Assembly (NCBI GenBank): GCA_023105745.1
Contig: JALGQZ010000014.1
Coordinates: forward strand, 7,559,888-7,623,887
DNA: 64,000 nt
From: Austropuccinia psidii
Taxonomy: Eukaryota; Basidiomycota; Pucciniomycetes; Pucciniales; Sphaerophragmiaceae
Direction of reading: 5' to 3'
Under the pieces are notes generated by a model. It did no database searches, was not told the DNA's origin, and saw nothing but the letters and a program-made list of their open reading frames with translations. The translations under genes were made by a program, and so were the position numbers. Below, one piece after another: positions 2,207-60,752 of the stretch; the stretch's first letter is position 1, and each line of letters starts with the position of its first letter.

Positions 2207-2274
2207 GTAAATACCCTAAGAACATAAAGTTTTTTACTGCTTGCAAACACTGACATGTCACCTGTATACCTCAG
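2207..2274 (+). other. Intron containing the gag-pol ATG, element A
   Basis: GTAAAT donor at 2207, CTGAC branch-like motif at 2250-2254, and CCTCAG acceptor ending 2274 (68 nt). The gag ATG is at 2255, inside the intron and directly after the branch-like motif. B has the same 68-nt length with branch CTAAC; D has 71 nt with CTAAT. Removal joins the leader exon in frame to ORF0 as Glu-Thr-Leu-Ala and deletes the Gag start. This is inference from sequence; no transcript evidence was available. Confidence 0.65.
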
Positions 2275-5200
2275 AGACCTTGGCTTCCAAAGGAACCAAC
2301 CAGAGGACAGAGAAGGATTGTCCAGAACCAGAAGACCTGGAAGAGGACACCTTGGACACAGTGGTGGATGGCAGAACAATGAGGGATATAATATCAACCT
2401 TGCCATTCACACTCCATTTCAACAGGAACCTCAAACCAGAGGAATGGAAAGACATGGATCAAGTTCTTCAGCTCCACCAACTCCTCAAAGATTCATTTCA
2501 ATGGAGCATGGACAACAAGAGGTTCAACCTGGCATCTCACTGGGCAGAACTTGGAGCAATTTGCCAGAAGATCTGTCTCAAAGAGATAGACTTCAAGGAC
2601 CTTATGGTAATAACCAGAGGTTGGAATCCTACCAGGCAGGTCACACTCCTGGAGGCAAGGGCAACCAGGATAAAGGAGAATCAAGCCACTATCCAAGCTA
2701 TAGAAGAACAGCTGACCCAGACAGGGCATACTCAGATTTCTTTGGGCTCACAAGGAGCAGGCCAAATCAGCTCTCCAGTGGCTTCACACCATTCAGAAAC
2801 CAGCAGATCAGTGGCCAAGAGTCACCATTCTTCACAATTCCAGGAAGTTTCCAGGAGAAGACAAGGAAACAAGGGCAAAAACAAGACTTCCTTCAACCAG
2901 AGGAAGAGAGAGTCAGACCCCATGATCCAGAAGCTGTTGGGTTTGGTGAAAGAAGTGCACAAGAACCAGAAGTAGTTGTAAGTGCCTCTAGAATCAGTAG
3001 TCCCATTAATAGAAATATTACCCCTACTCAGATTGAACATAATGTTGTCACAGCTGAAAGTAACTTAAACAGTGATGCACTGTGGTTACAAATGTCCCAA
3101 TATGCTGAGAAAACTCAAAAGCAGTTTTCAGAACTTGAAGCAAGCCATGAGAGGATGAAAAAATTAACAGCATCCATGGATAAAATTGCTAAAACTCTTC
3201 AAGAAGGACATGCTCAATTGAGCAAAGCCTCTGAAGAAGCCAACAAAAGACTGAATATAGTCTTTGAAGAACAACACCACAGCAGAAGGGACAGGGACTG
3301 TCTGGATCAAGATATAAACAAATTGTTTAATGTCTACCATAACATAAAGCTCCAGCCACAAGGCCATGTTAAGGATAATTCATATCACCCAGATGACATA
3401 AAACCAGATGCCATGCTGGTGAATAAGGCATGATCCCCATCACAATACCAGGATGGGGATAATATGTCTTATTCTGAGAAGGAAGCCTTGAAACAGCTTC
3501 CTGAGGCCTCAAGCTGGCCCAAATTCTCTGGAACAGGAGAATATGATCATATGGAGCTCATAGATTATGTTGATGGACTCTTCATTGATGTACCAAGCAT
3601 ACCAGATTACTGGATTACTGCTAGACTAAATACAGCATTTAAAGGTCATGCTAGTATATGGTACACAGAAATGAAAGAAATACATGGCAGAAGAAACTGG
3701 CCATGGTGGAAGAGTCAAATCATCCAAAAGTACAGTAATGGTACTTGGATATGGCAAAAGACCATGTCATTTGAAAATGACAAATACTCAGTGGACAAAG
3801 ATCCATATGAGTGGTGTCTTAGACAGTCTAAAAGACTTAAAGCCATTGATCCTCAGATGAACATGCAAATGAGGAATCACAAACTTCTCACAAAACTGCC
3901 AGGAGAACTAGAGCATGAAGTAAAATGCAGATGCAACCAAAATTGCACCCTAGATGAAATTTCTAATACCTTACAAGATATAAGGAAAAGAACCAATATA
4001 GGGAAATTCAGCCTATATAGAAGCAGTAGTTTCAAAGAGAAACCACTTCTCAGGGTGGAGTTTAAAGACAAACCCAGAGAAAGAGTGGCAGAAGTGGCAA
4101 AGAAGAAGAATTCTTGTCACAATTGTGGTTCAACAGACCACTATGCCAACAACTTTCCAAGAGCAAAGGAAAAAGTCTATGCCATTGAGAAAGTCCCACA
4201 GGAGGAATCCCCAACAGAGGATTCTGACCCAGACTCCATGGGTGATGCCATCAGAGAACCATCTGATGATGACCAAGACCCAAGAGAAGAATTTCTAGTG
4301 GAATACCAAGAAGAAACCCCACTAGAAATTTAGGACATACAGTTGGAAGCAGGGATGCCACAGGACATTGCCAACAAAAACTTGTGCAAACATACACAAG
4401 ATGCACAAACATTCCTGGTTACACCAACCAAAGGGATGGCATATATACATGGAACAGCCACAAAGGGACTGTCTGTATTGACAATGCTCAACATCCACTG
4501 ATCATTGATAGTGGGGCACACTGCTCCATAGTGGCCAGAAATCATCTGGATAACCACTTCCCAAATTGGGAAAAACAGCTCTTTCCCACCAAGGCAAATA
4601 ACTTTAAAAGTGCTTCAGGGAAGACGACTTCTTTTGGGACAATTATCAAAGAGATAATTATACCCCACAGGAAGGGTAATATCAGACTCAGCCCAGATTT
4701 GGTAGTGCTTGATGATGCCCACATCCAAGGCTTCTTACTGGGAACAGATTACCAAAGGATGTATGGCATAGATATTTAAAATAGTAAAAACAGGCACATT
4801 ACCATTGGTACCAACAAGGAGAAGAAATTTTTACTTGATATATACCAAATCTCTACCCATGATCCACTGGAGGAGTTACTGAATGAATTCAGAAAGGGCC
4901 AGTTTAGCACTACCCTCACCAGTAAACAAAAACTAAGTTTGCTGAAGATGCTGAGGAAGAACAGACCAGCATTTGCCATTGGTGAAGAACCACTAGGCAA
5001 GATCAAAGGCCATGATATAGAACTATATCTGGATGTGGAAAGACCTTATACACCCATGCTCAGGAGACCCCCTTATCCAAAACGTCTGAAAACCAGGAAA
5101 GAAATTGAAAAACATATCAATGAACTCCTGGACATGGATGTCATCAGAAAGATTGGACATAATGAAATAGTTGAAATAACCACTCCTGTCCTAATCACCT

Positions 5201-36542: not shown

Positions 36543-36595
36543 GTGAGTTTTTTCTCTTATTTCTCACTTTCTGAAAATTGTTTTATTCTTTTTAG
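36543..36595 (+). other. Candidate leader intron 1 of element B
   Basis: GTGAGTTTTTTCTC donor and TTTTTAG acceptor, 53 nt, at the same place as in A and D. Confidence 0.5.
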
Positions 36596-37097
36596 GTGCA
36601 ATATTTCTTAAAAATATATATTATATATATATATTTATTTCTTGGTATATATACCACTTTATACTCATATGTTAAGAGTATCTTTCACGCGGCTAATAAC
36701 CACAAGACCCTTATTTTTGGCATGTTTTACATATAAAAACACTTAAGCCATTAATACAGTCTCATTTTTTAATTAAAATAAGACACCTCATACTGATAAA
36801 CCAACAGTTGAGGCATGGTTGGACATATTGTTAACTCAATTGCCCCGTTACACACCACTTTTTGACAGTTTACACTTGCTAATTACAAGTTATTCTGTAA
36901 GATATAGGTATACAAACAATATACCAAATATCAGTAAGCTGTATTTCTGACGTGGAATTGTTAATTCAACCACACTGTCATTATACAAGGGCACATTGTA
37001 ATAATATACAAGGCCCAGAGGCCATTCTTAGATGTGCAAAACCAGCATTTTTTGAGAAGTCTTAACTGACATAAGCCCTCTTTTTCCTGCTTTGATT

Positions 37098-38168
37098 CAG
37101 TGGAAGATAACTTCATACCACTTGAAAGCAAGTCACAGGCCAACACACCAGTGAAACCCTCAGAACCAGAGGGCAGCAAAGGCAAAGGAAAGAGGCACAG
37201 TGAAGGACTGATAACAGCAAAGAAGTGGACACCCATTGCCACACAGAAGAGTAGAGAACTGGGAAATTCTGCATAAATACAAGGTAAACCAACCCTGATA
37301 ACTTGTACAGGGAAAATTACTATAATTAACCCAGTTGTAACCTCTAAAGGTAAATTGCCAAATCAGCAGACAACAAATTTGTACAAGGCACAGTCAAAGG
37401 TAAATACCCCAAGAACATAAAGTTTTTGACTGCTTGCAAACACTAACATGTCACCTGTACACCTCAGAGATCTTGGCTTCCAAAGGAACCAACCAGAGGA
37501 CAGAGAAGGTTTGTCCAGAACCAGAAGACCTGAAAGAGTACACCTTGGACACAGTAGTGTATCGAAAAAAAATGAGGGAGATAATATCAACCCTGCCATT
37601 CATACTCCAATTCAATGGAGACCTCAAACCAGAGGACTGGAAAGACATGGATCAAGTTCTTCAGCTCCACCAACTCCTCAAGGACTTAGTCCAATGGAGC
37701 ATGGACAACAAGAGGTTCAACCTGGCATCTCACTGGGCAAAACTTGGAGCAAGTTGCCAGAAGATCTGTCTCAGGGAGATAGACTTCAAAAACCTGATGG
37801 TAATCACCAAAGGTTGGAATCCTACCAGGAAGTTCAGACTCCTGGAGGCAAGGGCACAGAGGATAAGGGAGAATCAAGCCACTATCCAAGCTATAGAAGA
37901 ACAGTTAACCCAGACAGGGCCTACTCAGATTCCTTCAGGCTCACCAGGAGCAGGCCAAATCAGCTCTCCAGTGGCTTCACATCATTCAGAAACCAGCAGA
38001 TCAGTGGCAAAGAGTCACCATTCTTCACAATTCCAGGAAGTTTCCAGGAGAAGACAAGCAAACAAGGGCAAGAACAAAACCTCCCTCAACCAGAGGAGAA
38101 AAGAGTCAGACCTTATGATTCAGAAGCTGTTGGGTTTGGTAAAAGAAGTGCACAAGAACCAGAAGTAG
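37098..38168 (+). pseudogene. Leader exon plus ORF0, element B
   Basis: The leader exon after the GATTCAG acceptor-like site gives VEDNFIPLESKSQ and GSKGKGKRHSEGLITAKKW, then is broken by a TAA near 37276 and a one-base loss near 37361. The GTAAAT donor at 37400 and CCTCAG acceptor ending 37467 delimit a 68-nt intron with CTAAC branch (37443-37447) and the gag ATG at 37448. Exon 2 (37468-38168) is open and encodes the element A ORF0 protein: IISTLPFILQF, GWNP, RRRQANKGKNK and the same C-terminal KLLGLVKEVHKNQK. Function unknown. The leader breaks mean this copy could only make ORF0 from an internal ATG. Confidence 0.55.
37400..37467 (+). other. Intron containing the gag-pol ATG, element B
   Basis: 68 nt: GTAAAT donor, perfect CTAAC branch motif 21 nt before the CTCAG acceptor, ATG of gag directly after the branch motif. 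Length is identical to that in A. Confidence 0.65.
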
Positions 38169-39935
38169 TTGTAAACCACTCTAGAATCAGTAGTCCTAGT
38201 AATAGAAACATTACCCCCACTCAGACTGAACATAACATTGTCACATCTGAGAGTAACATCAAAAGTGATACACTGTGGTTACAAATGTCCCAATATGCTG
38301 AGCAATCTGCAAAGCAGTTTGCAGAACTTGAATCCAGCCATGAGAGGATGAAAAAATTACAAGCCTCCATGGAAAAAATAGTTAAAAATCTTCAAGAAGG
38401 ACAAGCTCAATTGAGCAAAGCCTCTGAAGAAACTAACAAAAGACTGAATCTAGTCTTTGAAGAACAACACCACAGCAAACGGGACAGGGATTGTCAGGAC
38501 CAAGACATAAACAAATTGTTTAATGTCTACCATAACTTGAAGCCCCAACCACAAGGCCAAGTTATGGAGAATCCATATCAACCAGATGAAATCAAACCAG
38601 ATGCCATGTTGATGAATAGGGAAAGATCTCCATCAAAATACCAGCTGGACATGGAATGTCTTATTCAGAGAAGGAAGCCTTGAAACAGCTTCCTGAGGCC
38701 TCAAGCTGGCCCAAATTTGCTGGATCAGGAGAATATGAACATATGGAACTCATAGATTAATATTGATGGACTCTTCATTGATGTACCAAGCATACCAGAC
38801 TACTGGATTACTTCTAGATTGAATACTGCACTTAAAGGTCATGCTAGTATGTGGTACACAGAAATGAAAGAAATCCATGGCAGGAGAAATGGCCATGGTG
38901 GAAGAGTCAAATCATCCAAAAGTACAGTAATGGAACTTGGATATGGAAGAAGACCATGTCATATGAAAATGACAAATACTCAGTGGACAGAGATCCATAT
39001 GAGTGGTTTCTTAGACAGTCTAAAAGACTTAAAGCCATTGATCCTCAGATGAACATCCAAATGAGGAATCACAAGCTTCTGAAACAACTGCCAGGAGAAC
39101 CAGAGCATTTAGTAAAATGCAGATGCAACCAAAATTTTACTCTAGATGACATTGCCAACACCTTACAAGACATAAGGAAAAGGACTAATATAGGGAAATT
39201 CACCCCATATAAGAGCAGTGGTTTCAAAGAGAAACAACCTTTCAGGGGAGGGTTTAAAGACAAACCCAAAGAAATAGTGGCAGAAGTGGCAAAGAAGAGA
39301 AATTCTTGTCACAATTGTGGTTCAACAGACCACTATTCCAACAACTTTCCAAAGGAAAAGAAAAAAGTCTATTCCATTGAGAAAGTCCCAGAGGAAGAAT
39401 CCCCAACAGAAGATTCTGAATCAGACTCTATGGGTGATGACATCAGAGAACAATCTGTTGATGAACAGGACCCAAGAGAAGAATTTATAGTGGAGTACCA
39501 AGTGGAAACCCCACTGGAAATTCAAGACATACAGTTGGAAGCAGGCATGCCACAAGATACTGCCAACAAAAACTTGTGCAAACATAAGATGACTGTGTGT
39601 ATTGACAATGCGCAGCACCCACTGATGATAGATAGTGGAGCACACTGCTCCATAGTGGCCAGAAATTATCTGGATAACCACTTCCCAAATTGGGAAAAAC
39701 AGCTCTTTCCCACTAAGGAAAAGAACTTTAAAAGTGCATCAGGGAAGATGACCTCCATTGGGACAATTATCAAAGAGATAATTATACCCCACAGGAAGGG
39801 TAAAATCAGACTCAACCCAGAGTTTGTAGTGCTTGATGATGCCCACATCCAAGGGGTTTTACTGGGAACAGATTACCAGAGGATGTATGGCATAGACATT
39901 CACCACAGTAAAAATATGCACATCACCATTGGTAC

Positions 39936-41860: not shown

Positions 41861-43297
41861 GTACTAATAAGAAAAAGAAGTTTTCACTTGATATATACCA
41901 GATATCTTCTCAAGATACACTAGAAGATCTTCTGAAGGAATTCAGAGAGGGACAGTTTAGCAAAACCCTCACCAGTAAACAGAAAATAAGTTTACTGAAG
42001 ATGCTGAGAAAGAACAGACCAGCATTTTCCATTGGTGAAGAACCATTAGGCAAGATCAAAGGCGATGATATAGAACTATATCTGGATGTGGAAAGACCTT
42101 TCCCACCCATGCTTAGGAGACCTCCTTATCCAGCAAGCATGGAAACTAGGATAGAAATTTAGAAACATATCAATGAACTCCTGGACATGGATGTCATCAG
42201 GAAGATTGGACATAATGAAATAATAGAAATCACCACCCCTGTCCTAATCACCTGGCATGATGGCAAGTCTAGACTGTGTGGAGACTTCAGAGCTCTGAAT
42301 AACTACACAAAAGCAGACAAGTACCCTATACCCAGGATACCTCATGCCTTGGATAAACTGGCAAAAGCCAAATACATAACCAAAATGGATTGTATGAAAG
42401 GATTCCACCAAAATGGAGTTAAACCAAACTCCATGAAATTACTCAGAATAATATGCCATATGGGTATATATGAGTATACCAGGATGCCATTTGGCATCAA
42501 AAATGCACCAGCCCACTTCCAAAGGATGATGGACACAATATTTCACAAAGAAATACTGGAAGGCTGGATGGTGGTATATATTGATGATATCATTATATAC
42601 TCAGAGACATGGGAAGACCATGTGCAATACCTAGACAGAGTGCTAAGTAAATGCACACCCATAAATCTGAAAATTTCACTTAAAAAGTGCAATTTTAGCC
42701 AACAAGAGTTACTGGCTCTAGGACATAAAGTCTCAGGTCTTAGTCTGGCAATTGACCAGAATAAAGTAGCAGCAGTACTTCAAAAGCCAGTAACAAAGAG
42801 CATCAAAGAGATGCAAGCTTTCCTTGGGTTTTCTAGCTACTATAGAAACCACATCAAGAATTTTGCCCACATAACTAGTAGTTTATACAAGTTGTGCTCA
42901 AAAGATGTAGTTTTTGAAATCACCAAGGAAAAGAGGGATGCATATGAGAGGATCAAATATGAACTCACAAATGCACCTGTGCTCATCTTACCTGACTTTG
43001 AACTACCATTCACGTTATACATAGATGCAGCATGTAGTCAAGGCCTAGGAGCAGCCCTTCACCAAAGACAAATTGTGGATGGTGAACCAAGAGAAGGTGT
43101 AATTTGCTACATCTCAAGGCAACTGAAAGATTCAGAAGCCAAGTATGGGGCCACCCAGACTGAGTGTCTATGTCTAGTCTGGGCTCTAGAAAAACTCCAT
43201 TATTATCTGGAGGGTGCAGTCTTTGAAGTCTACACAGACTGCACAGCCTTGAAGTCTTTACTTAACATGAAGACGACAAATACACACATTCTGAGAT

Positions 43298-45136
43298 TGT
43301 AAGGTGTGGATATGAAACTTTGATTAAAAATCAAGTACTTTTCCTGTCCTCAAAATTTGTATAAGGTAAAAATCAATTAAAAATAGTATGAAATATTATT
43401 TTTAAGAGAAAACACGCCAATTTTATTGTTTATAACTTTATTAGTATAAAACAATAATATTATAAAAATTTATTGTTTTACCAACAATAAAAATTTATCC
43501 AAAAAATACTCTACAAGAGATATTTTAAGGCTACAAAAGAAATTTCTTCAAGAGCAATTTCAATTGGAATTAATTGAGCAAAGAACTGCAAGCAATTAAT
43601 TAAAGAACAGAGTCTTTAAAAAGAATATTAAAGAGAAAACACGCCCAAAAGTGACCAGAGTGAATTTGGAAACAAAGTGACAAAGTTAACAGTGATGAAA
43701 GATGCTTTAATTCACTTATGGGGTGGTTCAGGGGTAAAAATGATTATAAGAGTTACAAACAATGATTATAATTATTTTTTCACGTGGTTAAAAGGATTAA
43801 AATGATTTAAAAGTGGTGGTTGGAATCTTTGATTGATTGGTTTAATAGTTTTAAACTAATTAATAAAAGGAAAAGATTCTAACATGAAGAGAAAAGTGGG
43901 GCAAAGAAGACATTCTTTTATAGCCATCAATTCTCTTACTCCAAAAGTAAAATTTACTCTTGTCAGTCGTGAAAAACAGTCTGACAACAGAAAAGCCAAT
44001 TATGGCATCATTGAACCCTGGTTTAGACCAAAAAGGGCTGGTTTAAGCCATTTTTAGCCATTTTTAGCCATTTTAGACCCTTAAATCAGCCATTACTATA
44101 GCAATACCAGGCCTAGAGCCTTCAAAACACGTCAGAATGTGTGTCAGAGGCGTAGAAACCAGTTAAAACTGTTTTTATTATGATTGTTTTATCTTAAGGG
44201 TAGTTTTACCTTCTTGGCAACAGCTAAAACTACCCCAGTTGGTATCAAAACCTCATCATCAATTGAGTCCACAGACCCTGTAACTCAATTCCAGGCCAAA
44301 AGTGATGAACTTTTGCGTGAATTTTGACATCCCACGCCTGTCAGCAAGGATGTTGGGGGTCTAGCTCCCCCTTAGAGCTGGAGTTCCTTTTCCCCCCCAA
44401 ATTTAATCTTTCCAATTTATTTTTCCTTTAATTCCTCATCATGTATTATACTTATAATTTACATATGTAATTCAATTCAATTGTACAGTACAATACAGTA
44501 ATAATTGACACCTCATATGTAAATCAAAGTTCACTTATGTAATACACGCGCACATTTTGACATTTCAATTGAATTCAATTGAAAATACTTCAATTCCTCA
44601 TAACTTCTAAACTAAACACAACACCTCAATTTTAACACAAAAATTGATGGTTAACACCACATGTGGTGTGAATTAAATTAAGGTTTTGAGGATTTTCAAC
44701 TTTTGTATTGAAAATACTAAAAACTTAATTTAAGCTTATTTAGAGTTGAGTTACAAAAATTTCACTCAGAGGTGACCCCACCTGATTTTTTATGAGGAAT
44801 CCAATGGTGAAATAAAATTTATATGTTTATTTATTGGATAAAAAGTTATAATAAATTTTATTTAACTTTTTTCCAAATTTATTTATTTTTTCACAATTTT
44901 GTTAAAATTTCATTTTTACTTAAATTTTTCAAGTATAAATGTAATTTTATATTTACAAAATTTAAAGTAATTTTATTTTTAAATTATAATTAATTCTTTA
45001 TTTTTAATATAATTTTATATTTATATTTTTTATTTTTATTTTTAATAATATAAATAAATTTATTTTATTTATATTAATATGTTATTTTTTATATTTGTGG
45101 TCTTTTGGGTATATGAAATTACCTCTAAGGCTCACA
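43298..45136 (-). repeat. 3' LTR of element C
   Basis: In element sense it starts TGTGAGCC and ends CCTTACA. Identical in length to 51559-53397. It holds a 22-bp perfect palindrome (44563-44584, centre GAATTC) and a 16-bp palindrome (44654-44669, centre CATG) in U3, a TATAAAAG at 43922-43915, and three short tandem copies of AGCCATTTTT near 44050. Confidence 0.97.
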
Positions 45137-45159: not shown

Positions 45160-48100
45160 TTACTTTGTAATATTGGTGTTTCTAGTGTGTCTGAATCTCC
45201 TCAGGAGTTTGGTGGCTTCTGGTATATCTTTCTCTTCTAACCATTCATCTTCACAAGTTGGGTCACTGTACCTAACAAGGTATTCCCTTACTTTCTTGGT
45301 TCTTAATTTCCTTTCTTTAAGAACTTTGGTTATTTTCTTAGTACCAGATGTCTCAATAGGAGGTATAACTTGGGGAATCTTATTCCTCAAGGGAAATTTC
45401 TCAGCATCACTAGATTTGTATGGCTTTATCAAGCTTACTGGAAATGTAGGGTGCTTATTGCTAAGTTCTTCAGATAACTCTACTTCAACAGCATTTTCTC
45501 CATGGAGGGCCTTAATCACAAAAGGTCCTGCAAAGGAGTCTTTTAACTTTTTACATCCTTTGATGTTATTGAAGTTAGTGGTGGATACAAGAACTAGGTC
45601 CCCCACTTTGAAATCTGGAGTTGCATGAGATTTATCCCATTTGTCTTTAGCATATGCAAAAGAGTCCTCCATGCATCTCACTGCATGCTTGCTAGCTTTG
45701 TCTAGCATTCCTTTGAAGCTAGCAGCTGTGGGATGTATTTCAATTAAGTCTTTCCTCAAGGAATCTTGGGGTAACTTGGGGTTCCATCCTTTTTCTAGAA
45801 TAGCAGGAGTCTGATTGGTACTGGAATGGATTGATGTTTTATATGCTAATTCCAGTGCTGGTAACAGAGTACACCAATCATGGGTAAATCCATCACAATC
45901 TTTGAATTTAAGGCCATATGCACAAAATCTTCTCACCATGTCCTCTAAGGTTTGGATCATTCTTTCAGCCAGACCATCAGTTTGTGGGTGGTAGGCTGTA
46001 GAGAAAGACAGTTTTGTGCCAAATAATTGGTGAAGATTTGTCCATAGAGCTGAAGTGAATTTGGGATCTCTATCACTGATGATATTTGTAAATATCCCAG
46101 TCCATGACACTACTCTATTCCATATCAGAAGAGCTGTATCCATGGCTGTATCATCTTTGTGACATGGTAAAAAGATTGGAGTTTTACTGAATCTGTCCAC
46201 AATTACTAGGCAAGCATTATAGCTCCTGTCACCTCCTGTTGGTAGGCCAGTTACCCAATCCATATGGACAATTTCCCAAGGTCTGTTTGGTTCTTGGATT
46301 TTCATCATATTTCCAAGTCTTTTGCCAGTGGATTTATTTGCCTTTTGGCATCTGTCACAGGTTTTGCAATACTCTGCAACATCTTTTTGCCACATTGGCC
46401 ACCATATGCAGGTCTTCACTTTCTCTCTTGTTCTGTCTTCAGAAAGATGTCCTGAAAAGGGACTATCATGGCATTCTTTCAGTACAAGATTGATTAATGA
46501 CCTGTCTACAACTGTCATGACACATGTGTGCTTGGTTCTGTGGTAAATTATACCATCCAGTAGGTGAAATCTTCCTTCATTATAAGATTTCCTCCATACT
46601 TCATCCAAGGCATGTATTAGAGAGTTGTCTTTACAGTCTTTGTTAAGTAATTGGCATAAGATGCTACAATTCTTATCTTGAGTGTAACTATTTCTGACTT
46701 CTTCAAAGAAGGTGGTGTTCAAGTCTGTAACACTTATTCCTTCTATTGGAATTTGTGGTGAAGCTTCTTCTGGAACATAAGCAGGATTATCAATGTTATT
46801 TGGTAATGGCCATCTGCTTAGTCCATCTGCATTTTTATGAATATTCCCATCCTTATGAACAATAGTCATATTGCCTCTGTATTCTTGTATGGCTATTTGC
46901 CATCTGAGCATGTGTCTGTTAGGTGTTTTCATGTTCAAAAGTGATTTCACAGCTGTACAATCTGTTATTACTTCAAAAACACATCCCTCTAAGAAATAGT
47001 TCAATTTCTCTAAGGCCCAGACAAGGCATAGACATTCCATTTGACTTGCTCCATATCTGGCTTCAGTTGGTTTGATTTGCCTGGATATGAAACATATTGG
47101 TCCTTCTACAGGTTTGTCATTTATGATCTGAACTTGGTGAAGTGCAGCACCTAGTCCATCCCCTGATGCATCAATATACAGTTTGAAAGGCAATTTAAAG
47201 TCTGGCATCAGTAAGAGTGGAGCAGTGGTCAATGCTTCTCTTAGAGATTCAAAAGCTTTGACTCTGTCAACAGTCATCTCAAATACTGTGTCTTTGTCAC
47301 ACAACTTATAAAGTGGTCTTGCTATGGATGCAAAGTCTTTAATGTGTTGCCTGTAATATCCTGCAAAACCTAAGAATGACTGAATTTCCTTCTTATTCTG
47401 AGGCATGGGTTTTAACAATACTGCTGCAACTTTGTTTTTATCAATTCCAAGGGACAAACCAGATACAACATGTCCTAGTGCCTTAAGTTCTTTAAATCCA
47501 AAATGACATTTCTTCAAGGAGATTTTCATGTTTACTGATTGGATTTTTGTCAAAACTCTTGATAATCTGTACATGTGCTCCTCCCAAGTCTTTGAACAGA
47601 TAATAATGTCATCAATGTAAATGATTAACCATCCCTCTGAGAGTTCTTCAGGGAAGATTTCATTCATCATTCTTTGGAAGTGTGAAGGTGCATTTTCGAT
47701 ACCAAAGGGCATCCTTAAGTATTCATACACTCCACAATGAACAATAATTCTCAAGTATTTTCTTGCTCTTGGTGTTACTACATTTTGATGGAATCCTTTA
47801 AGGGCATCCATAGTGGTTATATACACTGCTTGAGATATTTGAGTAAGGGAAATTTGGATTTTTGGTATTGGGTATCTGTCTGGAACAGTGTAAGTGTTCA
47901 GAGCTCTAAAGTCCCCAACCATTCTGGATTTTCCATTATGCCACGCCACTATGACTGGTGTAGTTATTTCTACTTCCTCATTGTGGCCTACTTTTCTTAT
48001 TACACCAAGGTCTAGAAGTTCTTTGATATGAATTTCTAGAGCTTCTCTTGACTTTGGACTTGCTGGATAAGCAGGTCTTCTTAAGAGTGGTGGATAAGGT

Positions 48101-51084
48101 CTCTCAATGTTAAGAATGATGTCAACTTCATGACCAATAATTGCTCCCAGGGGTTCTTTGTCTGTAGCAAATGCTCCTCTGTGGTCATACAAAAGGGAAG
48201 AAAGTTCATTTTCTTGCTTATCAGTCAGATGAAGGCTTATTTCAGCCTCATTTAACTGTTCAGACTTGAATTTCTCTAACTCTAAGTTGACTGGTGATAC
48301 TTTGTTTACTGTAATTTGTCTTTTAAAGGGTAAAAAGGCAAATTTCTGGCGCTTATTGTCTCCAATTGTAAAGTATCTGTCCTTGTTATTATGTAAATCT
48401 ATCCCATACATGATTAAATAGTCATTTCCCAATATAAAATGGGTACTAGAGCAATTTTCCATAACAACAAATTCAACTGTGATCCTTAAATTCCCATTTA
48501 TGTGTGGGAATATGACATTGGTCTCAAAGATTCCTAATGCTTTCATTGGGTTACTTGCACTGTTGAATTTTATACCATCAATTGGTAACAATTGGTCTTC
48601 AAAATTTGGTACACAAGTCTTAAGAAAAGATTTTCCAACACAAGAGCAGAAGGCTCCTGGGTCAAGCAAAAGTTTGGTGGGTTTGTTATCAATCACCACT
48701 TCTGTTATACAGGAGTTACCAGCTGTATAACCTTTTCCTCTGTTTGGTTTTGTCTTCATAAGTTGTGCATCTTGAACTTTTGATAAATCAACTTGACCAT
48801 TGCTCAATTGTGGTAAGTGGGAATAAGATTCCATGATGTCAAAAGTGGCATTGATATTTTCTATATCTTTTGAAGATTCAGAGAATATGGATGACTTATC
48901 ATCTGAATTGTCTTCAATTATGTCTTCTTTTTCAACATCTGGTTCTTTTTCAATGTCAATTTCATTGATTTTCCCCCTTTTTGGACATGTATTGGCTAAA
49001 TGGGTGGTGCTTTGGCAAATATGGCATTTTCTGACTGTATCTGCAGATTTATATTTAATATTACTAGAATTTTCTTTGGGGTTTTTGTCCACAGAATCTT
49101 TCCAAGGTGTATTAAACCTTGTTTTAAGATTCACCCTACTAGAACCAATTTTGGTTCTGGTGGTTACTTCTTCTAGTATATTGATAATATCCTCTGCTGA
49201 AGATTGTTCAGTAGTCCTGCTTTTGACAGCATGCTCTAAGTCACCTCCACATTGTCTCAGAATATTTCTATGGATCATAAATTCAGACATGTCAGGATAT
49301 AATGCTGTTAATCTGTCCTTTTGTTGGCAAAACCATGGTAAAGCTTTGTCTTTATCAGCATTAAATTTGGCAGATTCAAAGGCTGTTTCAACTTTGAACC
49401 TCCAAGCATCATTTGCCCATTTGTTGATGATTTGGGTTTTCCACCAAGTCCAACTCTGGTGTCCATGTGCTTGTCTTATTTTGATGTACCATCTGTGAGC
49501 TGATCTGGTAAACAAGGTGTTAAACCTGGCTGTTACCAATCTGTCTGGTAATTCAAAATCCTCTTTGATCATGTCAATACCTCTAATGAATTCCATATGG
49601 TCATACTCTCCTTCACCACTGAAGTGAGGCCATTCTTTAAGTTTTGGAACTTCTTTCAAGAGTGCTTGGCCCATTGATGGTTCCAAGTTATGAAAAGAAG
49701 TGGATAATTCATTTTTTAATTGTGAATTATCAGGATCCAATACTTGTGGATTTGAAATTCTTGTGCCCTCATTTTGATTTAGAGGTGTAGACATTCTTGG
49801 TAAGGTGTTCAGTAATTGTTCAATGTCATTCATTTTACTGTTGCTACACCTTTGGGAATTTCTGTATTCATGTTGGAAGCTTTGTATTAAATTTATTACT
49901 TCAATTTTATACATGTCTTCCTTATGTGTAAGTTCTTGCCATAACTCTGTCTGTCTTGTATTATCAGCAGTGACTTGATTCAATTTCATTGATAATTTTG
50001 ATACTTCTTCTTGTGAAGCATCAAAACACTTTTTCAAGGCAATGGTATATGTCTTTACTTCAGTAAATGAATTTGAAATGTCATCAAGGACTTTCTTGTT
50101 ATCTGTCTTGATAATATTTATGGCTTGTTTAATTCTTGTTTCAATTATGTCATCAATATTGAATTTAGAATATTTATCTGTTAATTCTTTAATAATGGCA
50201 GATTGTTCATTTATTTTATTGTTAGAAGAATTATCATTATTGGAATTTTTAATTGTTCTCAAAACTTTCTCAAAACACATAAGTGTTTCATTAATTTGGC
50301 ACAGACTCAGGTTGTTTGTTTTAATGTTGTTACAAATGGTGTCATTTTTATCAGAAAGATGTTTTTTCACGTCATTTATAGCATTATACAACTCTGGGAT
50401 GGAATCAAATATGTCAGAAATCATTTCTGGAACCTTAATCTGGCTTCCTCCTTCTTCTGTAATTCCATCATGGTTCTGGCCATCTGAAATACATTTTCCA
50501 TGGCATCCTGCTGAATCTTTGGGATTCTGTAGCCCTGGCTGTAAGGTTTTGGGGCTGGTGCCTTCCCTTTGCCCTTGTTTGGAGCTTGTGGCTGTTTTTT
50601 CACGTTGGAATTGCTGCTGCTGGCCACTGGGGCTGTTTTTGGCACTGGTTTGGGTGGTGGAGGGTTGTTTTTCCTCCATTCTAGTGTCAAAAGCATCATG
50701 TTTTTCTTCTCCATCAATGGATGCCATCCATTGAGCAATTTGCAAGTGTTGGGATGGCCCAAGAATTTTCTTACTGTCAGGTAAGAATTCATGCAATTCT
50801 TCCACAGGTCTGCAAGGATCTGGTACTCCTTGAATTGGAGTGCATTGTTGTATGCACTGTGGCTGGCTTTGTATATGTCCACAGAGGCTTGTTGTGGCGG
50901 TTTCAGCTCTTTTTGAAGGTAAAATGGTATTATCAGCTTCAGAATGACCCATTTTAGTTGTTTGGAAGTCATCAACTGACCCTTTTCCTTCTGTACCTGG
51001 TTGGCCTCTGCCATAATCACGTCTATTACCTTTTTGGGAGCTGCTTGAGGGGTTGTAGCTGGCTCCTGACCTGGTTGAAGGCAT
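45160..51084 (-). CDS. Gag-Pol polyprotein of element C, intact, 1974 aa
   Basis: Makes the capsid, protease, reverse transcriptase, RNase H and integrase for copying RNA to DNA and inserting it. ATG at 51084 is the first in this frame after the leader. Domains: Ser/Gln-rich N-terminus (1-220), coiled-coil (about 220-430), Gag core from about 485 ([12 protein letters not shown]), CCHC knuckle C687-C690-H695-C700, protease D808-P809-G810, RT about 1015-1200 with YIDD 1156-1159, RNase H with D1305, integrase zinc H1539-H1546-C1576-C1579, integrase core D1609-D1671-E1707 (35 residues between the last two), and a C-terminal chromodomain-like segment (REYLVRYSD) to 1974. Gag and Pol are in one frame with no frameshift signal. 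Its first 220 residues are overlapped by ORF0 in another frame. DPG replaces the usual DSG/DTG of retropepsins. Confidence 0.95.
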
Positions 51085-51354
51085 AATTATGGTTAAAAAA
51101 GGCTTAAAATAGTATTTTTACGTCAAAAACTTACTATTGGCCAAATTTTTGGCTTTCTGAAGTGTATTACTTATATCCAAGTTAATTAATTCAGAAGATA
51201 TTGGTTCAGGTTGATTATTTTGAGTCACAATAACAGTACTATTATGATCAGAATTAACAGTACTGGCAGGGATAATGCTGGTTACTGTTGAGGCTGTTTC
51301 AATGTTTTCTTGTCTTACCACGTTGTCAGACACTAAAATTAATGAAAAAGCCAA
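50421..51354 (-). CDS. ORF0 of element C: spliced accessory protein overlapping gag
   Basis: Leader exon 51332-51135 (open from 51354; no ATG; preceded by a TTTTAG acceptor-like site) encodes [18 protein letters not shown]...[19 protein letters not shown]. Removing the intron 51134-51071 joins it in frame through Ser to [16 protein letters not shown] and the 199-codon frame 51020-50421. Exon 2 has hydrophobic helices ([10 protein letters not shown]), a GWHP motif followed by [10 protein letters not shown], a Pro/Ser linker, a basic [11 protein letters not shown] patch and the C-terminal helix [19 protein letters not shown]. The same order of traits occurs in ORF0 of A and B. In exon 2 the first ATG is at 51014; the real start may lie in an upstream exon. 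Role unknown. I recall similar stand-alone rust proteins, unverified. Confidence 0.65.
51071..51134 (-). other. Intron containing the gag-pol ATG, element C
   Basis: In element sense: GTAAGT donor (51134), TTTTTAAC branch-like motif, CAACCAG acceptor (51071); 64 nt. The gag ATG (51084-51082) is 11 nt before the acceptor. Splicing removes it and fuses leader and ORF0 in frame. The pyrimidine tract is weak, so splicing might be partial, which would suit a switch. Confidence 0.6.
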
Positions 51355-51537
51355 TTAATTAAGTAAAAAAAAGGTTATTTCAAAAAAGAAATAAAAATAT
51401 AAGCCTCACTTATAATATGAAAAAAATTATTTTTTAAGGATTTTTTTTGGATTATAAGTATTTTTTATATGTTTTTAAATTTTTCAATATAAGAAAAAAG
51501 ATTTAAAAAGAGTAAAAAAAATATGTCACAGGTAAAA

Positions 51538-51558
51538 TATCACGGCTGGGCCCCCAAA
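51538..51558 (-). other. Candidate primer-binding site of element C
   Basis: In element sense TTTGGGGGCCCAGCCGTGAT directly follows the 5' LTR. TGG near its start would pair with a tRNA 3' CCA. tRNA not identified. Confidence 0.65.
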
Positions 51559-53397
51559 TGTAAGGTGTGGATATGAAACTTTGATTAAAAATCAAGTACT
51601 TTTCCTGTCCTCAAAATTTGTATAAGGTAAAAATCAATTAAAAATAGTATGAAATATTATTTTTAAGAGAAAACACGCCAATTTTATTGTTTATAACTTT
51701 ATTAGTATAAAACAATAATATTATAAAAATTTATTGTTTTACCAACAATAAAAATTTATCCAAAAAATACTCTACAAGAGATATTTTAAGGCTACAAAAG
51801 AAATTTCTTCAAGAGCAATTTCAATTGGAATTAATTGAGCAAAGAACTGCAAGCAATTAATTAAAGAACAGAGTCTTTAAAAAGAATATTAAAGAGAAAA
51901 CACGCCCAAAAGTGACCAGAGTGAATTTGGAAACAAAGTGACAAAGTTAACAGTGATGAAAGATGCTTTAATTCACTTATGGGGTGGTTCAGGGGTAAAA
52001 ATGATTATAAGAGTTACAAACAATGATTATAATGATTTTTTCACGTGGTTAAAAGGATTAAAATGATTTAAAAGTGGTGGTTGGAATCTTTGATTGATTG
52101 GTTTAATAGTTTTAAACTAATTAATAAAAGGAAAAGATTCTAACATGAAGAGAAAAGTGGGGCAAAGAAGACATTCTTTTATAGCCATCAATTCTCTTAC
52201 TCCAAAAGTAAAATTTACTCTTGTCAGTCGTGAAAAACAGTCTGACAACAGAAAAGCCAATTATGGCATCATTGAACCCTGGTTTAGACCAAAAAGGGCT
52301 GGTTTAAGCCATTTTTAGCCATTTTTAGCCATTTTAGACCCTTAAATCAGCCATTACTATAGCAATACCAGGCCTAGAGCCTTCAAAACACGTCAGAATG
52401 TGTGTCAGAGGCGTAGAAACCAGTTAAAACTGTTTTTATTATGATTGTTTTATCTTAAGGGTAGTTTTACCTTCTTGGCAACAGCTAAAACTACCCCAGT
52501 TGGTATCAAAACCTCATCATCAATTGAGTCCACAGACCCTGTAACTCAATTCCAGGCCAAAAGTGATGAACTTTTGCGTGAATTTTGACATCCCACGCCT
52601 GTCAGCAAGGATGTTGGGGGTCTAGCTCCCCCTTAGAGCTGGAGTTCCTTTTCCCCCCCAAATTTAATCTTTCCAATTTATTTTTCCTTTAATTCCTCAT
52701 CATGTATTATACTTATAATTTACATATGTAATTCAATTCAATTGTACAGTACAATACAGTAATAATTGACACCTCATATGTAAATCAAAGTTCACTTATG
52801 TAATACACGCGCACATTTTGACATTTCAATTGAATTCAATTGAAAATACTTCAATTCCTCATAACTTCTAAACTAAACACAACACCTCAATTTTAACACA
52901 AAAATTGATGGTTAACACCACATGTGGTGTGAATTAAATTAAGGTTTTGAGGATTTTCAACTTTTGTATTGAAAATACTAAAAACTTAATTTAAGCTTAT
53001 TTAGAGTTGAGTTACAAAAATTTCACTCAGAGGTGACCCCACCTGATTTTTTATGAGGAATCCAATGGTGAAATAAAATTTATATGTTTATTTATTGGAT
53101 AAAAAGTTATAATAAATTTTATTTAACTTTTTTCCAAATTTATTTATTTTTTCACAATTTTGTTAAAATTTCATTTTTACTTAAATTTTTCAAGTATAAA
53201 TGTAATTTTATATTTACAAAATTTAAAGTAATTTTATTTTTAAATTATAATTAATTCTTTATTTTTAATATAATTTTATATTTATATTTTTTATTTTTAT
53301 TTTTAATAATATAAATAAATTTATTTTATTTATATTAATATGTTATTTTTTATATTTGTGGTCTTTTGGGTATATGAAATTACCTCTAAGGCTCACA
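51559..53397 (-). repeat. 5' LTR of element C
   Basis: 1839 bp, one difference from the 3' LTR by eye. In element sense TGTGAGCC...CCTTACA. The same U3 palindromes lie at 52824-52845 and 52915-52930. Confidence 0.97.
52176..52183 (-). promoter_or_regulatory. TATA box in the 5' LTR of element C
   Basis: In element sense GGCTATAAAAGAATGTC, the only strong TATA context in the GC-richer middle of the LTR. It would place the start about 590 nt before the LTR end, giving a long R-U5 leader. Confidence 0.5.
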
Positions 53398-55261
53398 GAG
53401 ATGGAAAATAGACATCCAGGAGTATAGAGGTAACATGACCATGTGTACAAAGAAGGTAAAAGTCATGCGAATGCAGATGGCCGTAGCAGATTGCCACTGG
53501 ATAATGTCAAGAGCAATCCAGCTTATGACCCTGAAGTTGCAGCCAAAATCCCTATCAATTTCATGGAAATAGATAGGAGGAAGAACTTTAGATTTTCTGA
53601 ATGGGCACCAGGAAGTGGTACCCTTGGCAGTGGAAAAACTGATTCATAGGGGACAGAAACTCCCATATTGGGAATAAGTTCCTCTGAACTGCAAAATGAA
53701 TTTTTTAGTGCAGTACTGAAGTCTTATGCCAAACACAAACAGTGTGGCATACTACTACAACTCCTTCAACAAAAGTACAGGAGTCCAGAACTGGAATCCC
53801 AGATGTAAGAACCCTGGTTGAGGGCCTATAAGGATAACAAGTTCTTCCTTATAGATGGCCTGCTCTACCACAGAGAAAAACACACAAGTGCACTCACAGT
53901 GGTAGACAGAGACCACATCTCCTTGATCCTGCAGGAATTCCATGACTGCCCCTATATGGGACACATAAGTGAAGACAGGACCATGGAGAGGGTAGAAAGC
54001 AAAGCTTGGTGACCCAAGTGGGAACAAGAGTTGAGTGAATATATTAACACTTGGGAAAGATGCCAAAAGGCGAATAGGAAACATGGGAAGAAGTATGGGT
54101 TACTTCAACATATAGAAGAACCTAAACACCCATGGGAAACCATCAACATGGACTGGGTTACAGGATTTTTCCCAGGAGGCAAAGAAAACTACAATGCCTG
54201 CTTGATCATAGGTGATAGGTTCAGCAAGAGCATGAGGTGTATACCATGCCACAAGGAGGATACAGCCATGGATACTGCTCTGTTATTTTGTAATAATATC
54301 AAAACCACCTGTGGAGTCCCTAAGATCATCATTAGTGATAGGGACCCAAAATTCACATCTGAAGTTTGGACCAACTTGTATGACATGCTTGGCACCAAGC
54401 TTGCTTTTTCCACAGCTTACCATCCACAAACAGATGGCCTGGCAGAGAGGACATCCTTAGGAGGCTCTGTGCCTATGGCATGGAGTATAAGGACCATGAG
54501 GGATATACCAATGGCTGGGTTACCCTTCTACTAGCTGTTCAACTGGCTTATAATACAAGTCAGCACTCTACCACAGGAAAAACACCTGCACTGGTAGAGA
54601 AAGGGTGGAATCCCTTGTTGCCTGTGGATCACTTGAATAAGAATCTTCTAACCATCCATTCCACAGCCAAAGACCTCCGTGATATGTGGAAGAGGGCTTG
54701 TGACACAGCTGCTAAATGCATAGCTGAAGCAAATGATTATAATAAGCAGAGGTGGGATAAGACACACATGGAACCTGACTTTAAGGAAGGGGACCAGGTG
54801 TTAGTATCTACACTTAAATTTAACAATCTTAAAGGACCCAAGAATATGAGAGACTCATTTGTAGGGCCCTTCACTATCATAAAGTTGATAGGCAAGAATG
54901 TAGTGGAAGTCAAGCTCACAGAGGAGTTTTCCAGGAAACACCCAGTCTTTCCAGTGAGGTTGGTCAAACCATACTTCCAAACTGAGGAGGGTAAATTCCC
55001 CTCCAGGAAGAAGATCCTCACACCACCAGAGATAGTGGAATTGGAGGATTCCCCAGGACCTGTGAGTAAAATCATCAGGGCCAGAAAGATCAGACTTAAT
55101 GGGAAGGATCAAAGACAGTACTTAGTCAGATTCAAGAACCAGACAGCTGATAAGGACAAATGATTGGCAGAAGATGCCATACCAGATGGGAACCTTCATT
55201 TAAGGAGATTCAGAGCCTCTAGGAGGACTGAACAGTCTCATCAATGATGAGCCTTTTTAAA

Positions 55262-55270: not shown

Positions 55271-56706
55271 TGTCAGCCTGTGACTCAAAACCAGAGCACA
55301 AGCATGACAGCCAAAATACCATAAACCAATGGTATAGCCAAGATACCACCAAAACATGGAGCTGAGCCAAATAAGCTCAAAAGGTATCAAAAGAAAGAGT
55401 AAACTCACCTCTTTCTGAAAATATAAGCCCCATCACCATAGGACAAAAAATAACAAAGTTATTCCTGCTCAAAGTTATTGCTGAGCATAAACCTTAATTT
55501 TCACCTCTCATCTAAAATCTAGAAGGAGAGGCCTAACCCCATCAAATGGGTATTCAAAATGAAGCTCTAAGCCAGGGCTATCCAATGGTACCAGCCAAAC
55601 TGAGCTAGCACCAATATTACTGGATTTATGGTCAATTTCAGGCCAAATAAGGGTGAACAAAACATTCACCTCTCATCTAACTTCTACAGTTTTAGTGTGA
55701 GAGACTTGAAGTGGGGTCCTTTTGGAAAGAGCAAAATTAGGGCTATCTGATGGTGGCATTCATTTACCCATAGCTCAACTAGAACAAAGGTTATTGGGCA
55801 AATGAGCTCAATACAGCTTTTGGCCTATACCACGCAAATGTACAAAATTCTTGTACATGGGATAACTTTACCATATTTAATGATACCCATATCAAATGAG
55901 GTACCATTGTGTATAGCACATTCAGGGCTACACACCGAACCAATTTTGAGGTTGATATCTCAAGAATTGACAAAGTTATGGCTGTTTTAAGGTCAGATTC
56001 CCACCTGCGGTCATATACATCCCTACCATGGGATAATATCCCATAACCATGAATATGAGGTTTCAAATAGACAAAGAAGCTTGTTTCTACTTCAATACCT
56101 CATATGTCACTCAATACTGGGGTCCCATACAGTTTCTGTACAGCATTCTATGTGTCATACATGTCAGAATCAGGCTGTGAGGTCCCCAGATGAAATTTTT
56201 ACCCTGTATTGGTGAAAACTGCCCAGATGTGGTTTCAAAACCACATCTGAGCCCAATACCGGCTATACAGGCTGTTTGCAAACCACAAGCCAGTACTAGA
56301 GGGTGAAAAATCTTCACTTCCTCTACGTGGAAAGGTCTAGCACCCTTTCCACCCCATTTCAGGATAAAAAGAAGGCTTTTCACAGCCATAATTGTTTCCT
56401 CATCCTTCTCTTGAATATCCTATGTAGTAAACTGTCAAAAACAGTTTTACTCTTGGGTAATAATCAGGGTATAATTATAACTTTAATTATTGTAGCTATT
56501 ATTATAGTAATCCAACTGGTAAGACTGCACCCAGGGTTCTCAATAGCGCTCACCACCACTATTCTTCAATAGTAGAACCCTTTTATTATATTATAAACCT
56601 TTATATTAAATTGAAACTCTAATTTTAAAATTATTTCCATGTGTCACAGTCATAGTTCTAGTTGTAAATACCCTAATGACTGCTTCAACATAGACTCCAG
56701 CTGACA
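55271..56706 (+). repeat. 3' LTR of element B
   Basis: TGTCAGCCTG...CTGACA, 1436 bp, followed by the duplication AATTT. Confidence 0.95.
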
Positions 56707-59341: not shown

Positions 59342-60752
59342 TGTCAGCTGGTGACTCAAAACCAGAGCACAAGAATGACATCCAAAATACCATAAAGCAA
59401 CAATAGAGTAAAGCATCACCAAGAATGAAACTAATCCAAAGTAGCTCATACAAGATATCAAATTAAAGAGGAAATACACCCCTTTTCAAATATAAAACTC
59501 CCATAATCATAGGACAAAGAATAACAAAGTTATTCAGGCTCATAGCAATTTCTGACAATAAACCTTAATTTTCACCTCATAAAAATTCCAGAGAAGGAGG
59601 CTGAACTCCATCAAAGGGATGCTAAGATTTAAGATCTCAGTCAGGGCTATCTAATGGTACTAGCCAAATTAAGCTAGCATTAAAACTGCAGAAGGTATGT
59701 ATCAAAATAAGCCAAATAAGGGTGAACAAAATATTCACCTCTCATCAAACTTCTACAGTTTTAGTGTGAGATACCTAAAGTGTGGTTTCCTTGGAAATAG
59801 CACAATCATTGCTTTTTTATGGTACCAGCCCTTTTCTCAAAACTCAACTAGAACAAAATTTATGGAGCAAACAAACTCTATATAGGACTTGAGAAGTATC
59901 CATATCTGAATCATGGGATTTGAAAGTGGTATAACATTGCCATATTTAATGATACGCATACCAAATAAAATATCATTGTGTATAGATAGCTCAGGGATAC
60001 ACAATTAAGCAGCTTTGAGCTCTTGATATTGAAAATTGACAAGGGTCTGCCAGTTTTAAGGCTAAAATCCCACAGTATAGTCAATACACCTTTATTTTGA
60101 GACACTATCCCATATCCTTGAATATGAGGTGTCAATTCTATGAAATAACCTGTTTATCCTTAAAACATCCCATAGTTTTGCCTGTATGGGCTTCCAATAT
60201 GGGTTATGTAAATAATTCTACACTTCATACACATCAGAAGAGGGCTATGTGGTCCACAAATTACAATATTCATCCTGTATTGACGAAAACTTGCCAGATT
60301 TGGTTTCAAGACCACATCTGATCCCAATACAGCGTATACAGGCTATGTGAGAGTCACAATCCAGTTCTGGAAAATGAAAATGCTTTACTCTTTCTATGTG
60401 AACATGTCCAGAGGCACTTTCCACCCAATTTCAGGATAAAAAGGAGCCTTTTCTCTGCCAAAAAGAGAATCCCCATACTGCTCTTGAATTTCTACATAGC
60501 AAGAATGTCCAAAAAAGCTATACTCTTGAAACAAATCAGTTTATACTTTAGCCTTTGTATTGTATTTCTTATTATAGTTAATAAACTGATAATAAGTGCA
60601 CCCAGGGCTTTCAACAGTGCTCACCACCACTATACGTCATGCTAAAGCCTCAAATACTATTATTAAATTTTTTTACTGTATATTACCATATCACAGGCGT
60701 AATTAGAACTTTATATACCATCTTATGGCTTTATTATAGACTCTTCCTGACA
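59342..60752 (+). repeat. 5' LTR of element D
   Basis: 1411 bp. Ends and internal blocks match the A/B LTRs (GTGAACAAAATATTCACCTC, TTTCAGGATAAAAAGGAG) with many substitutions. Confidence 0.9.

Follow-up and report, generated by a model that had tools for sequence, protein, structure and literature searches.

A Ty3/Gypsy retrotransposon of Austropuccinia psidii with its gag start codon inside an intron: a probable splicing choice between Gag-Pol and an accessory protein

Accessory genes expressed through splicing are a hallmark of the complex retroviruses. The Rev and Tat proteins of human immunodeficiency virus 1 (HIV-1) and the Rex and Tax proteins of human T-cell leukaemia virus (HTLV) are small basic regulators translated from fully spliced RNA in frames that overlap other genes, while the unspliced RNA encodes Gag-Pol; in known cases, proteins made from fully spliced retroelement RNA are mostly regulatory or envelope (Env) proteins. 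To our knowledge, spliced accessory genes have rarely been described in retrotransposons. The closest described system is the Ty3/Gypsy element Cer1 of Caenorhabditis elegans: its CERV protein is the product of a spliced mRNA, lies partly in a frame other than that of gag and is needed for the export of unspliced RNA (PMC10309623). The barley element BARE produces a spliced RNA reserved for Gag, and splicing favours Gag (PMC3735527). Here, we analyse element C, a long terminal repeat (LTR) retrotransposon on the minus strand of a 64,000-nucleotide (nt) stretch of the rust Austropuccinia psidii (contig JALGQZ010000014.1, positions 7,559,888 to 7,623,887), called the window and numbered from its first letter. 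In what we regard, with considerable confidence, as the best overall explanation, its primary transcript gives Gag-Pol when unspliced and an accessory protein, named ORF0, when spliced.

As in the complex retroviruses, fully spliced RNA of element C would encode a basic protein and unspliced RNA Gag-Pol; unlike in those viruses, a 64-nt intron holds the gag start, and the start codon of the accessory protein would arise where two exons are joined. With Cer1, the element would share an accessory protein derived from spliced Ty3/Gypsy RNA alongside Gag-Pol from unspliced RNA, and both CERV and ORF0 are highly divergent between relatives. The layouts differ: exons 1-3 of CERV are in the gag frame, one exon is in another frame and the last occupies the env position (PMC10309623), whereas element C shows no coding exon in the gag frame, has nothing after pol, assembles its start codon by splicing and carries the gag start inside an intron. 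Of the features that would mark a CERV-like product, spliced RNA (attested by retro-spliced genomic copies) and an exon outside the gag frame were found and a last exon in the env position was not. A role in RNA export has been shown for CERV; for ORF0 it would be an analogy only. BARE resembles element C as an LTR retrotransposon that divides its RNA between products by splicing (PMC3735527); element C departs from the BARE type in that splicing of intron 2 deletes the gag ATG and yields a different protein. Among titles and abstract openings of the open-access literature, no retrotransposon was found that combines a splice-assembled start codon with a gag start inside an intron, and in two rust papers (PMC12210899 and PMC8063080) the words gag and intron do not occur, nor, in the former, does any form of splic-, of which the latter has one instance. 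An earlier note on this DNA, made from the sequence alone, had held the arrangement not to be a described standard one; this is apt for the exact combination, as far as that literature goes, and overlooks CERV as a described relative.

The Gag-Pol open reading frame (ORF) of element C (45160..51084) encodes 1974 amino acids (aa), and its ATG (51082..51084) lies within intron 2 (51071..51134, 64 nt, GTAAGT...CAACCAG). The earlier note had read these features correctly, donor and acceptor included, as it had the uninterrupted reading from leader into ORF0 that results when 51135 is joined to 51070, with no stop codon in between. Removal of intron 2 thus deletes the gag ATG and joins the leader to ORF0, which by its coordinates is +1 relative to gag, as in the second family described below, and covers the first ~220 Gag codons. 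The overlapping ORF, counted from its first internal ATG (50421..51014), has 197 codons and not the 199 claimed, and two further introns had been missed. Intron 1 (51333..51409, 77 nt, GTGAGG...TTTTAG), missing at this junction from three genomic copies, follows an exon 1 whose 3' end, TTATAA (51410..51415, placed on the basis of copies L031/L034 and L032), provides in its final A the first base of a start codon: intron removal joins ...TTATAA to TGTCTGAC, giving A/TG TCT GAC with the ATG in the leader frame. No ATG occurs in the leader frame itself, and this step therefore closes a gap in the model first proposed; the leader-ORF0 fusion itself is borne out by intron-less copies, but its start requires the removal of intron 1 and the coding leader begins only at 51332. 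Exon 2 (51135..51332) supplies TG, 65 codons and 1 nt, the N-terminal part of the ORF0 protein. Beyond intron 2 lie exon 3a (50981..51070), an optional in-frame intron 3 (50909..50980, 72 nt or 24 codons, GTCAGT...AAAAAG) and exon 3b with the stop codon (50421..50908), so that the complete protein has 282 aa with intron 3 retained and 258 aa with it removed. The gag-pol ATG is present in all 30 scoreable copies (L001-L029 and L032, where L001 is the window copy; L030 was unscored).

Spliced element RNA, if sometimes reverse-transcribed, should leave intron-less copies in the genome, and the window's own assembly (1.015 Gb) was searched for them. The predicted intron-2 junction (32 nt, at most 3 mismatches) has one genomic match, which is exact, and the backward-pattern control has none. 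This copy, L031, carries LTR and primer-site sequence and is devoid of introns 1, 2 and 3. The intron-1 junction occurs at three places genome-wide (control 0): L032, which has lost intron 1 and retains introns 2 and 3; L033, from which all three introns are gone; and L034, the same copy as L031. Intron 2 is missing from L033 at the site where L031 has lost it, but the junction letters of L033 differ from those of the window, and the base-exact loss of intron 2 is therefore shown by L031 alone. When L033 served as query, the 40 places scored comprised the L033 and L031 copies and 38 relatives. In all 38 the main block begins at the intron-3 position (query 461-469); the majority also have further separate blocks bounded at the intron-2 and intron-1 positions. 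Exon 1 followed by a base other than G was found at 114 places, against 15 in the backward control; among the matches listed in this search for alternative intron-1 acceptors most are decayed donors and two are L032 and L033.

The same design recurs in a second family, A, present on the plus strand of the window as copy A (gag from 2255) and copy B (gag from 37448). Compared with element C, it shows 59-61% identity over a piece of the reverse transcriptase (RT) and 32% over gag residues 401-800, with no detectable similarity at the gag N-terminus. Its layout is likewise that of a leader followed by a small intron that carries the gag ATG, with an ORF, here of ~230 codons, lying over gag in the +1 frame. 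Copy B comprises intron 1 (36543..37100, 558 nt, TTATAA/GTGAG...TTCAG/TGGAAG), exon 2a (37101..37283, A/TG GAA GAT ..., with an in-frame stop in this copy), an optional in-frame intron 2 (37284..37349, 66 nt by the GT-AG rule, the alignment ends overlapping by 9 nt), exon 2b (37350..37399), intron 3 with the gag ATG at 37448 (37400..37467, 68 nt, AAAG/GTAAAT...CCTCAG/AGATC) and the ORF0 exon (37468..38168), which runs in the +1 frame over the gag ORF (37448..38683). The corresponding ORF0 frame of copy A spans 2283..2975, over a gag ORF at 2255..3433.

The family-A junction was fixed in writing ahead of the genome search. The junction left by removal of the gag-ATG intron was found at 17 genomic places and at none with the backward control. 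Eight of these copies are without all three introns, two without the last two, and seven without the gag-ATG intron only, the 5' part of one of the seven (L078) not being covered; intron 2 is missing from 10 of the 17. In the fully spliced copies exon 1 (TTATAA) meets TGGAAGA to form A/TG, letter for letter in four of the eight (L065, L067, L068, L077), while the remaining four fail this pattern. Judging by such copies, a splice-assembled start codon occurs in both families, and the intron-less genomic copies of the two families demonstrate that the predicted splice junctions are real. The search for alternative intron-1 acceptors gave nine places in family A (two in the control), one of which is L067; another, L082, proved to be unrelated sequence and was set aside. 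Among themselves, the family-A intron-less copies share 83-98% identity over about 260 nt. Within the groups L070/L075 and L071/L073/L074 identity reaches 97-98%, and each group may represent one event that was later amplified. Their members have lost only the gag-ATG intron, as if Gag-less copies had been amplified in trans.

How a ribosome might choose between the two products is suggested by the distribution of ATG triplets, for which expectations were drawn from 5000 first-order simulations. The leader of unspliced element C RNA is free of ATG over 1061 nt (51085..52145) where 13.8 are expected, a figure somewhat overstated since the edge at 52145 is set by the last ATG of the LTR. The fair test is the 474 nt from the primer site to gag, which contain none against 6.2 expected (P 0.0016). 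None of the intron-bearing copies scored (29, L001-L029, which are near-identical) has an ATG in this stretch; L032, without intron 1, has two. Downstream of the promoter region, the gag start would accordingly be the first AUG of an unspliced RNA, and scanning ribosomes that enter the AUG-free leader would first meet the gag-pol AUG in intron 2. Removal of intron 1 would assemble a new upstream AUG; removal of intron 2 would delete the gag AUG and fuse the leader exon to the +1-frame ORF0. The spliced RNA would then encode a basic accessory protein of 258-282 aa, intron 3 acting as an optional in-frame cassette. Loss of intron 1 only, as in L032, would place a short upstream ORF ahead of gag.

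Substitutions in the overlap of ORF0 and gag were examined in all frames. Singletons of family A (n=220) are neutral in every frame, with 43 synonymous in gag, 53 in ORF0 and 37 in the third frame (expected 45.4, 49.9 and 49.4), as expected of dead copies; differences fixed between lineages, in at least 80% on each side, were therefore used instead. ORF0 exon 3 of 29 family-A copies plus the window copy differs from that of L065 and L066, two full-length members of a second subfamily, at 25 fixed positions, 14 of them synonymous in the ORF0 frame (7.2 expected) and five in gag (7.0 expected). When ten second-subfamily copies are included (278 sites), there are 11 differences, eight synonymous in ORF0 (3.9 expected) and one in gag (3.2). 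Exon 2a has 11 lineage differences, seven synonymous in the leader frame (2.3 expected), and the synonymous excess of exons 3 and 2a has a combined P of 5e-5, this and the P values below assuming independent differences. The gag-only stretch yields 11 fixed differences, four synonymous in gag (2.5 expected), which are small numbers. Variants common to at least three family-A copies number 15 in the 700 nt of overlap and 30 in 381 nt of gag-only sequence (2.1 vs 7.9 per 100), the direction that double constraint predicts; those in the overlap are synonymous seven times in ORF0 (3.5 expected) and twice in gag (2.9).

In family C, the differences of L033 from the window include post-insertion noise: in the overlap 31 of 74 are synonymous in ORF0 (17.5 expected, P 4e-4) and 10 of 74 in gag (14.9 expected), while in the gag-only part 34 of 95 are synonymous in gag (23 expected, P 0.008). 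The density of these differences, 74/576 in the overlap and 95/529 in gag-only sequence, is as double constraint predicts. L031 and L032 each show nine differences from the window in the overlap, synonymous in ORF0 in three (2.1 expected) and four (2.8), and in gag in zero (1.7) and two (2.3), respectively; their gag-only differences are synonymous in gag in 4/8 (1.9 expected) and 9/10 (2.7). Among 30 scored copies (L002-L030, L032) the overlap holds 17 singletons and six shared variants, three of the latter synonymous in ORF0 (1.7 expected) and none in gag (1.3); eight of 14 shared gag-only variants are synonymous in gag (3.3 expected), and eight of 12 singletons in exon 2 are synonymous in its frame. 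These copies are too similar and were dropped as a selection test by themselves.

Taken as a whole, these patterns demonstrate purifying selection on the predicted ORF0 frame. The earlier note had proposed testing both frames for it, and the outcome is divided: the ORF0 frame is synonymous-biased and the overlapping gag frame is not. Stops in the ORF0 frame, which in most copies would have spoken against its proposal, occur within the overlap in 11 of the 29 family-A copies, and gag-frame stops in 13, counting substitutions and disregarding indels. Its core claim, that intron removal deletes the gag start and fuses the leader to an ORF in another frame, is upheld by the intron-less copies of two families and by this selection. 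The direction of overprinting is another matter. Over ORF0, the gag frame of element C has no stop where 7.8 are expected, and none of 20,000 synonymous ORF0-codon permutations is without one; in family A the same permutation predicts 8.8 stops (P 5e-5). ORF0 is the frame under sequence constraint, and the first ~220 residues of Gag look like a permissive extension that is mainly kept open. It follows that ORF0, described in the earlier note as overprinted on gag, is probably the frame over which gag was extended. The intron-less copies at predicted junctions, the substitution pattern and the openness of the gag frame over ORF0 are all above chance.

Protein searches returned 604 and 886 matches, of which the best 120 of each were listed, and all 240 relatives among those listed belong to A. 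psidii MF-1. Within the best 120 annotated MF-1 gene models, which are annotation predictions, 34 include the leader and 31 of these also the ORF0 start. The two parts are separated by exactly one junction residue in 22 models, by two in one, overlap by 1-11 residues in seven and lie 23 residues apart in P0001. Intron 3 is left out of 22 and kept in 33 of the 55 models, among the matches listed, that cover both its sides. One model, P0090, opens with the Gag start and continues in the ORF0 frame, as if by another splice or a frameshift. The truncated UniRef name 'No apical meristem-associa...' is attached to the ORF0 relatives P0007, P0030, P0048, P0062, P0090 and P0094; the Pfam scan of the window ORF0 found no such domain. 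DUF4535, the one candidate family, scored below the Pfam cut-off (E 0.075, 13.2 vs 28.3 bits) and was rejected.

Several observations weigh against a two-way reading of the transcript. Intron-less copies are rare, the intron-2 junction of family C being present in its intron-bearing form at 3740 places and in spliced form at one. L033 has ATT in place of the assembled ATG at its intron-1 junction, and L031 carries two ORF0 stops relative to the window. Family A has four ATGs inside its long intron 1, and copy B another in exon 1 (36512); the first-AUG model is therefore not transferable unchanged, and the Gag RNA of this family may use another route. Fixed differences in family A do not show the lower density in the overlap that double constraint would predict (3.6 per 100, against 2.9 in gag-only sequence). 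The ORF0 frame stays open in 6.9% (C) and 3.0% (A) of synonymous gag-codon permutations, which makes its openness weakly unusual given the gag protein (P 0.07 and 0.03). ORF0 matches no NCBIfam model, no Pfam family above cut-off and, by sequence, nothing in the PDB; it is predicted helical with low confidence, and its structure models are poor, with predicted local distance difference test (pLDDT) values of 63 and 43. Finally, the ORF0 proteins of the two families show no significant similarity (BLASTP E 0.022 for one pair and 2.8 for the other, profile comparison probability 0.2%).

As to what ORF0 does, our leading guess, drawn by analogy with CERV, is that it regulates the RNA of the element itself, most probably as a nuclear or RNA-binding protein that would, for example, export or protect the unspliced form. 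The main rival, less likely than a regulator and on our estimate clearly a minority view, leaves the mechanism intact and makes ORF0 an ancestral matrix-like structural partner of Gag, the Gag N-terminus having been overprinted later and splicing setting a structural ratio. It would agree with an overlap in which ORF0 is constrained and the gag N-terminus permissive yet kept open, and with a protein that is basic (isoelectric point about 10) and, by the low-confidence prediction, helical. Against it, sequence comparison with Pfam and the PDB found no resemblance between ORF0 and matrix or capsid domains, the models being too weak for fold comparison, and in known cases fully spliced retroelement RNAs, that of CERV included, mostly encode regulatory or Env proteins. 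Both a regulatory role and the splicing-controlled balance between Gag-Pol and a partner that the earlier note had envisaged are inferences.

A second alternative accepts the splicing and denies the protein: splicing would mainly turn Gag off, or clear an upstream obstacle, and the joined ORF0 peptide would be incidental. In its favour, the gag ATG is inevitably lost with intron 2, the openness of ORF0 given the gag protein is weakly unusual as noted above, and ORF0 is without known domain. We nevertheless consider this improbable: the synonymous excess is found in ORF0 and leader among family-A lineages and in ORF0 of L033 in family C, not in the overlapping gag frame, and in both families the leader reads in frame into ORF0. 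A third alternative sees no splicing behind the intron-less copies, which would be simple deletions or represent an older state of the element that had no introns, as their rarity in family C might suggest. It is very unlikely indeed and was rejected in view of the GT-AG boundaries, the joint loss of two or three introns per copy in two families, in family A among copies of 83-98% mutual identity, and the 38 of 40 places scored with L033 whose main block begins at the intron-3 position, the other two being L033 and the L031 copy.

By its domain order, element C is classified as a young Ty3/Gypsy (Metaviridae) LTR retrotransposon. Its 5' LTR (51559..53397) and 3' LTR (43298..45136) are both 1839 nt long and align with a single mismatch in 1839 nt; the 5' LTR begins TGTGAGCC and ends TTACA, and a polypurine stretch, GGGGGAGGGAA, precedes the 3' copy. 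The flanks read ATCTC on the 5' side (53398..53402) and on the 3' side (43293..43297), a target-site duplication. The primer-binding-site region, located by inspection, adjoins the LTR (51541..51558) and is presumably tRNA-Pro-like. Gag-Pol includes RT, RNase H, the zinc-binding and core parts of integrase and a Tf2-1-like SH3 domain, with RVT_1, RT_RNaseH, Integrase_H2C2 and rve found by Pfam in that order (pieces scanned apart). Paired LTRs with a target-site duplication, and RT, RNase H and integrase in one polyprotein, are what the Ty3/Gypsy class calls for. Only 23 nt separate the stop of the Gag-Pol ORF (45160) from the 3' LTR (45136), and no gene follows pol.

Element C sits in the integrase region of the older copy B of family A (window 43297/53398), whose RNase H/integrase reading breaks at 43296 and picks up again at about 53399-53443. 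A degraded family-A copy with stops occupies 61839-64000 on the plus strand, with recognisable fragments of its gag and ORF0 frames (61919-62108). Direct repeats of 73-80% identity at 55381-56004 and 59452-60073, ~4070 apart, are perhaps old LTRs.

A bolder extension, which we put forward tentatively and hold to be less likely than not, is a retrovirus-like early/late switch in which splicing creates the start codon for a regulator of the Rev or CERV kind while eliminating that of gag, one product per transcript; the regulator frame would be the older one, overprinted by the Gag N-terminus, and the design would predate the split of families that are ~60% identical in RT. A spliced accessory gene in a fungus would extend the known range of such genes. 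A start codon built across an exon junction, together with the removal of the competing start, would amount to a compact mutual exclusion of two products per RNA. With copies in the thousands, family C alone having 3740 intron-bearing junctions, and with certain copies missing introns in known combinations, the order of splicing, the packaging of spliced RNA and the evolution of overlapping genes would become measurable in this genome.

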